A stretch of 64,000 bases of DNA from Paraburkholderia youngii (GTDB lineage Bacteria; Pseudomonadota; Gammaproteobacteria; Burkholderiales; Burkholderiaceae). This document shows, piece after piece, positions 29,947 through 30,115 of the stretch (positions are counted from its first letter, which is position 1; each line of letters opens with the position of its first letter). The stretch lies in contig NZ_JAALDK010000002.1 in the NCBI RefSeq assembly GCF_013366925.1, positions 558,001-622,000 on the forward strand, written 5' to 3'. Made by a program: the position numbers and the translations under genes. A model generated the notes under the pieces. The model was not told where the DNA came from. It did no database searches and saw only the letters and a program-made list of their open reading frames with translations.

Positions 29947-29977
29947 GAAACGAAAATGCCGCCAGGACTGGCGGCAT
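29947..29977 (-). terminator. Attenuator terminator before trpS
   Basis: On the leftward strand ATGCCGCCAG pairs perfectly with CTGGCGGCAT (10 bp, 2-base gap, realistically a 9-bp stem with a 4-base loop) and is followed by TTTTCGTTT. It lies between the leader peptide and trpS. The 5' arm GCCGCC can instead pair with GGCGGC just after the leader stop codon (about 30012-30017), giving a possible antiterminator. Confidence 0.8.
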
Positions 29978-30022
29978 CACGTTTGCGAATATGCGTATGT
30001 GTGTGGAAACGGGCCGCCGGAT

Positions 30023-30073
30023 TCAGGCGTGCCACCAACGGTGCAGTTTCAGCGAGGTCGGTTTCGTATCCAT
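30023..30073 (-). CDS. Tryptophan-sensing leader peptide of trpS
   Basis: 16 codons encoding MDTKPTSLKLHRWWHA, with tandem Trp codons at 30037-30032 just before the stop. Stalling at these codons when charged tRNA-Trp is low would favour the antiterminator and allow trpS transcription. No Shine-Dalgarno sequence is seen. A -10-like TATACT (30086-30081) would place the transcript start at or next to the ATG, so the leader may be translated from a leaderless RNA, as reported for trpL of Sinorhizobium. Confidence 0.78.
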   Translation of the reverse strand: MDTKPTSLKLHRWWHA

Positions 30074-30080
30074 GGAATTG

Positions 30081-30115
30081 AGTATAACGCAGCCTCAAAC
30101 AAATTTGCCTGAGGC
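30081..30115 (-). promoter_or_regulatory. Candidate promoter region of the trpS leader
   Basis: TATACT (30086-30081) fits a -10 element. The expected -35 is weak. GCCTCA (30092-30097) and TGAGGC (30110-30115) form a dyad over the spacer and -35 area that could be an operator. Confidence 0.4.

Follow-up and report, generated by a model that had tools for sequence, protein, structure and literature searches.

The DNA upstream of trpS2 in Paraburkholderia youngii raises the question of whether the gene of a tRNA synthetase is governed by a ribosome-mediated transcription attenuator, and whether the mRNA could begin directly at the start codon of the leader peptide. The window, that is, the whole stretch of DNA analyzed, comprises 64,000 nucleotides of contig NZ_JAALDK010000002.1. 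Our findings indicate that such an attenuator very probably controls this auxiliary trpS, on an mRNA probably starting at the leader AUG. We infer the start site, the stalling, the termination, and the induction by Trp shortage or TrpRS inhibition from the elements present, their conservation, and the position of the promoter.

The auxiliary trpS and its leader region

The trpS2 product is a class I TrpRS, as indicated by its matches to PF00579 and TIGR00233 (238 bits, with a cut-off of 176.75). Its nearest PDB chains, which are also its closest solved structures, are 1yi8 and 2a4m (E about 1e-124); 2a4m is named Tryptophanyl-tRNA synthetase II, and we take these TrpRS II chains to be the Deinococcus (Deinococcus radiodurans) enzyme. 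Among the named genome records returned, from which its own record was possibly left out, the closest protein belongs to Paraburkholderia atlantica (97%). A second trpS had been suspected in this genome and was found: a different gene above the cut-off, with an open frame of 402 aa, is located on the largest contig, and inspection by eye of the 320 bases 5' of it revealed no TGGTGG. On sequence grounds, the window gene is the TrpRS II-type second trpS of the genome. The features of the locus are the following:

28885..29901, minus strand: trpS2, auxiliary tryptophanyl-tRNA synthetase of the TrpRS II type, 338 aa from the ATG at 29901, assigned by TIGR00233 and the nearest PDB chains
30081..30086, minus strand: -10-like hexamer TATACT, ending 7 nt before the leader ATG
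30023..30073, minus strand: leader ORF of 16 codons, MDTKPTSLKLHRWWHA plus TGA (ATG 30073-30071, TGA 30025-30023)
30037-30032, minus strand: tandem Trp codons 13-14 (TGG TGG) of the leader ORF
30026..30033, minus strand: segment 1, GGCACGCC, from inside the second Trp codon to the base preceding the stop, paired with segment 2 in the predicted fold
30018-30013, minus strand: GGCGGC
30007..30018, minus strand: segment 2, GGCGGCCCGTTT, able to pair with segment 1 or segment 3
29970..29984, minus strand: segment 3, AAACG...GCCGCC, the antiterminator partner, overlapping the 5' arm of the terminator
29955..29978, minus strand: predicted intrinsic terminator stem-loop (3:4), perfect 10 bp with loop GTCC (arms 29978-29969 and 29964-29955)
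29947..29954, minus strand: T-rich terminator tail TTCGTTTC

Read along the minus strand from 30086 to 29947, the region 5' of trpS2 thus presents TATACT, 7 nt, the 16-codon ORF with the C-terminal end R-W-W-H-A-stop, GGCGGC, and the 10-bp terminator. All the elements that the initial annotation had described as an attenuation architecture upstream of trpS are present and are supported comparatively: the 16-codon ORF carries TGG TGG near its stop, and GGCGGC is able to pair with the 5' arm of the terminator, the 2:3 pairing being kept in class A (defined by the genus comparison below). The terminator had been described as a perfect stem of 9-10 bp with a T-rich tail; the stem stands at 10 bp and the tail is T-rich, but the T tract is interrupted (TTTTCGTTTC). 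A terminator scan of the region returned two overlapping terminator-like sites, compared with 0.3 expected in shuffles. The RNA from the AUG to the tail (127 nt) has a predicted energy of -48.5 kcal/mol, lower than that of every one of 200 dinucleotide shuffles (z -3.96), and its best predicted structure combines stem 1:2 with the terminator. Given alone, segments 2 and 3 pair at -12.8 kcal/mol, a value equaled by 30 of 200 shuffles and thus no better than shuffled sequence.

The promoter scan revealed no convincing -35 box at normal spacing in the window (best-scoring candidate CAGGCA, 19 nt). An imperfect palindrome, GCCTCAGGCAAATTTGTTTGAGGC, occupies the place of the -35 box directly 5' of the -10 (30091-30114), and a stretch resembling it is also found in the near relative L017; it is possibly an operator candidate. 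On the plus strand, an ORF of 126 aa without a Pfam match (30204-30584) is oriented divergently from the attenuator.

Conservation, reading frame, and promoter position

At least 64 of the 144 genomes in the genus survey carry a full-length, one-piece match of the trpS2 type, and all 64 listed loci were fetched. The alignment of trpS orthologues that the initial annotation proposed as a check favors its reading, with an in-frame leader containing the tandem Trp codons (WW) in 58 of the 64 loci and the stems kept in class A. Loss of the WW codons or the terminator in close orthologues, which it had named as evidence to the contrary, is found in a minority only: six loci have no intact WW leader (L023, L046, L056, L057, L063, and L065), and seven more, forming class B, have no convincing terminator. 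In L056, promoter and terminator are kept and a TAG stands at the place of the first Trp codon. The leader is lost in L023, where an identical TATACT precedes the ATG of trpS by 6 nt, so that trpS itself would be leaderless and unregulated; this locus is an apparent natural loss of the attenuator. The leader is kept and the promoter changed in L035.

The class B loci (L004, L005, L007, L008, L009, L016, and L018) have a WW leader followed by a different downstream region, in which no convincing intrinsic terminator was recognized in any of the seven; a scan of five of them found nothing. Their WW-stop stem (GGCGCTCC...GGAGCGGC) resembles those of Agrobacterium and Methylocystis rather than most leaders of their own genus, a likeness hinting at transfer of the gene together with its leader.

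Translation of the leader is supported by a frame test, in which the order TATA-ATG-WW was searched in 158 loci without any frame requirement. This order occurs in 82 loci, and ATG and WW share one frame in all 82, at distances of 27, 30, 33, 36, 39, or 60 nt; the 17 loci that deviate from the usual distance do so each time by multiples of three. The same agreement holds for 40 of 40 representatives, while the distance from WW to the terminator occurs in all three frames. The in-frame arrangement in 82 of 82 loci is a pattern left by selection on the reading frame, and we conclude from these comparisons that the leader is under coding constraint, as would be expected of a translated ORF with a run of regulatory codons.

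The position of the promoter is similarly constrained relative to the ATG. In 51 of the 52 class A loci (L035, with its changed promoter, was left out of this count), the gap between the -10 and the ATG is 6 nt (32 loci), 7 nt (17), or 8 nt (2), and the letters of this gap vary freely. When the first in-frame ATG was taken by rule and the best of 36 possible -10 positions was recorded, 45 of the 57 representatives had this best position 6-8 nt from the leader ATG, compared with a mean of 4.5 and a maximum of 11 in 200 shuffles; among 18 further distant loci, only 6 had it there (mean 1.5 and maximum 5 in 300 shuffles). Leaving aside Burkholderia, Paraburkholderia, and Cupriavidus, 21 of 34 members have a -35-like TTG located 35-37 nt 5' of the start codon, compared with a mean of 1.7 and a maximum of 6 in 1000 shuffles. 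Because of these positions of the -10 and the TTG relative to the ATG, the leader AUG probably lies at or next to +1 and the RNA is probably leaderless. The start of transcription at or beside the AUG, as originally proposed, is therefore consistent with promoter position in the representatives and in the TTG set, and more weakly in the 18 distant loci.

Alternative pairings and the output of the leader

Across 51 of the 52 class A loci, pair cells are kept at 98.6% for the terminator, 97.0% for the antiterminator (2:3), and 99.7% for 1:2. No two-sided pair change appears in any of the three stems in these 51 loci, and likewise on 36 of the 52, so class A provides no covariation and the conservation may reflect sequence alone; segments 2 and 3 may be frozen because their bases serve two pairings. 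In 45 of the 55 representatives tested, 2:3 complementarity equals or exceeds the 95% level of shuffles; for 1:2, a contiguous-stem test gives this result in just 3 of the 55. Of the 57 representatives, 55 have a terminator-like hairpin, L008 and L016 among these being doubtful.

Outside class A, two-sided changes are found at positions 1, 4, 5, 6, and 7 of stem 1:2 in 17 members, with the variants CGCTCC/GGAGCG, CGCTCT/AGAGCG, TGCTCT/AGAGCA, CGCTTCCT/AGGAAGCG, and CGCCTC/GAGGCG. These members were chosen for their class-B-like stem form, with arms taken from a best-stem scan, so the fraction paired is meaningless while the two-sided changes do count. A MAFFT alignment of the short 1:2 region was dropped for pair counts because it rendered the loop too poorly. 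As predicted from these comparisons, the 1:2, 2:3, and 3:4 pairings are mutually exclusive, and a predicted intrinsic terminator precedes the regulated gene in the window and in class A, class B having no convincing one.

These elements suggest the following mechanism. When Trp-tRNA is ample, the ribosome would reach the stop codon and cover segment 1 and part of segment 2, the 3:4 terminator would form, and transcription would end at a length of about 127 nt. Under a shortage of Trp-tRNA, stalling at the WW codons would hold the ribosome over segment 1; segments 2 and 3 would then pair, no terminator would form, and trpS2 would be transcribed. This logic is that of the E. coli-type trp leader, with its tandem Trp codons and alternative 1:2, 2:3, and 3:4 pairings, although the leader ORF of E. 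coli is preceded by a 5' UTR with a ribosome site and that of the window probably is not.

The leader could instead control the translation of trpS2, with the ribosome on the leader determining if the ribosome-binding site of trpS becomes hidden in a downstream hairpin. The empty terminator scans are consistent with this explanation (all five class B loci scanned, six of eight loci from Alphaproteobacteria or other classes of the phylum, and both family f16 loci), as are complementary TATCTCC-like and GGAGATA-like stretches seen by eye around the trpS ribosome site in the Vibrio locus L221, which was folded, and in the f16 loci. However, a strong terminator with a T-rich tail is conserved throughout class A, the window included, a terminator was found in the alphaproteobacterial locus L210 and in L202, and the pairing of the putative ribosome site in terminator-less loci is uneven, with mean paired probabilities from 0.12 to 1.00. 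We consider this explanation improbable for the element as a whole; as a second output device, masking of the ribosome site is a lead suggested by predicted folds and missing terminators. Transcription attenuation remains our preferred reading.

Distribution of the element and related systems

A covariance model of class A scores the window element at 148.5 bits; the next match in its own genome, at 18.6 bits, corresponds to this terminator read on the opposite strand. A match of 15.2 bits was also returned there, and the own-genome match G000:C1:45812-45949 looks like an unrelated terminator. Of the 398 family genomes, 78 match the model, and these belong to 6 of the 25 genera; three weak matches near 28 bits (G282, G425, and G433) look like unrelated terminators, and their removal leaves 75 genomes in 5 genera.

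The hairpin might also form the 3' terminus of a small RNA, or of a small mRNA of the leaderless type, that acts in trans, as RNA or as peptide, by analogy with S. meliloti rnTrpL/peTrpL. The terminated RNA of about 127 nt that would arise at the window locus is compatible with such a role, and rnTrpL, as described in the part of PMC7298713 available, likewise starts at the ATG of a Trp leader and acts in trans. Nevertheless, every strong copy read precedes trpS2, which lies directly downstream in 29 of 29 further best-scoring loci (genera g1, g12, and g25) and in 14 of 14 other genomes (genera g3, g11, and g12), the one extra copy (L190) preceding a remnant; we regard a function in trans as the main role as very unlikely, an added one being compatible with attenuation. 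That a chance ORF coincides with the ordinary terminator of another transcript has a negligible probability: short WW ORFs can occur randomly and terminator-like hairpins are common, but conservation across species, in-frame length changes, and promoter position argue against it, and the ORF on the other side (30204-30584) is directed away.

The Burkholderia locus L190 carries, from 6425, this second full-strength attenuator copy before an internally deleted trpS2 remnant. In the three Undibacterium loci L151, L153, and L155, inspection by eye shows a promoter-like TTGACA...CATCAT followed within a few tens of bases by a GCCGCC hairpin and a T run; no leader ORF is seen, and these loci may represent a decayed attenuator.

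A protein search extended the WW leaders before trpS2 to Massilia, Herbaspirillum, Janthinobacterium, Chromobacterium, Chitinibacter, and others, and a single-Trp leader was seen by eye in Duganella strains and Pseudoduganella danionis. Of 249 genomes drawn from the phylum, 11, including that of P. youngii, have a close trpS2 relative (E 1e-100 or better), and 10 of these 11 carry a WW leader, the exception being L199. As judged from these loci, the association of the WW leader with one subfamily of auxiliary TrpRS extends far outside Burkholderiales. A plasmid survey returned 154 records with a match, of which 13 loci were read; WW leaders were found on plasmids of Variovorax, Roseibium, Agrobacterium, Methylocystis, Shigella, Klebsiella, E. 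coli, Vibrio, Rhodococcus (with a GTG start), and Streptomyces. The plasmid trpS loci read from Enterococcus, Bacteroides, and Staphylococcus have no WW leader, and Rfam matches to E 0.1 include no T-box or amino-acid leader 5' of them. The gene tables of the plasmid regions read, which are incomplete, list no feature at the leader. Three of the plasmid loci (L212, L214, and L215) are enterobacterial and combine a WW leader with an auxiliary trpS; 5' of the leader and trpS, an IS26 transposase gene is present in L212 and a predicted fosfomycin-resistance gene in L215.

The leader also tends to accompany the spare copy of trpS. In a hand-picked sample of 17 genomes, 12 have a second trpS above the cut-off, with a WW leader in nine (L112, L114, L115, L116, L123, L130, L139, L145, and L158), a single-Trp leader in two (L125 and L128), and none in L143. 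The five with one trpS above the cut-off (L118, L136, L150, L155, and L162) have no WW leader, L150 having a single-Trp ORF. All 10 genomes of another sample have a second trpS, including L199, which lacks the leader. The counts, from samples that are small, non-independent and, for the 17 genomes, hand-picked, suggest a tendency for the leader to occur where this trpS is the second copy.

Comparison with Rfam did not assign the element to a described family: the window scores 22.3 bits for Trp_leader (RF00513), below the gathering score of 41, and eight loci of diverse members match no family at the gathering threshold. The matches in the window region at a loose threshold, Trp_leader and RNAI, were set aside as sub-threshold.

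Related systems are nonetheless known. Streptomyces trpS attenuators share a leader peptide with one or more Trp codons 5' of trpS. The S. lividans TrpL2 leader (MMTRTCTQLWRAA), according to the part of PMC8079986 available, is leaderless and precedes trpS, so the general kind is already known; it differs in having one Trp codon and no U-rich stretch and in belonging to another phylum, whereas the leader described here has tandem Trp codons and, in class A, a T-tailed terminator. An attenuator was also predicted for S. avermitilis trpS2 (PMC1262725, in the part available), and Vecchione and Sello (2010) report, by their title, ribosome-mediated attenuation of the gene of an auxiliary, antibiotic-resistant TrpRS. 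Proteobacterial attenuators were the subject of a comparative study by Vitreschak and others (2004), as cited in PMC8079986. The trpL/rnTrpL of S. meliloti likewise combines a Trp leader ORF at the 5' extremity of the RNA with a transcription attenuator, but it regulates the trpE(G) biosynthesis operon and has reported trans functions, whereas a synthetase gene is concerned here (PMC7298713, same part). The TrpRS II of D. radiodurans is described in the available part of PMC9437257 as a second, stress-induced TrpRS. Nitric-oxide synthase is the partner of the Deinococcus enzyme; the likeness seen for the Paraburkholderia protein concerns the synthetase itself.

The literature searched, mostly open papers, contained no report of this WW-leader trpS2 family in Pseudomonadota, and an earlier mention is possible. 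The main texts of start-site papers on B. cenocepacia (PMC4603805) and C. metallidurans (PMC7563307) do not mention trpS, tryptophan, attenuation, or leader peptides, and the available main text of a premature-terminator paper (PMC2965389) does not mention trpS. Judged from sequence, the element appears to be a real attenuator, conserved widely and belonging to a general kind already known, with a probably leaderless leader and tied to an auxiliary TrpRS II; the new part would be the separate sequence class of the family and what look like two output devices.

There is about an even chance that this is an old mobile module, in which a leaderless WW leader with a hairpin overlapping the stop codon has moved together with the auxiliary TrpRS II gene across Pseudomonadota and as far as Actinomycetota, using both chromosomes and plasmids. 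The module would disappear once TrpRS II becomes the only TrpRS, and it would act through either a terminator or masking of the trpS ribosome site. If so, TrpRS II would be a back-up enzyme turned on by failing Trp-tRNA charging. These findings offer many natural attenuators in which the leader probably lacks a ribosome-binding site. How a ribosome loads on a 5' AUG that has just been transcribed, early enough to influence RNA polymerase, thereby becomes testable by comparison and simple reporters. The attenuator also predicts the conditions under which a widespread second TrpRS would be expressed.
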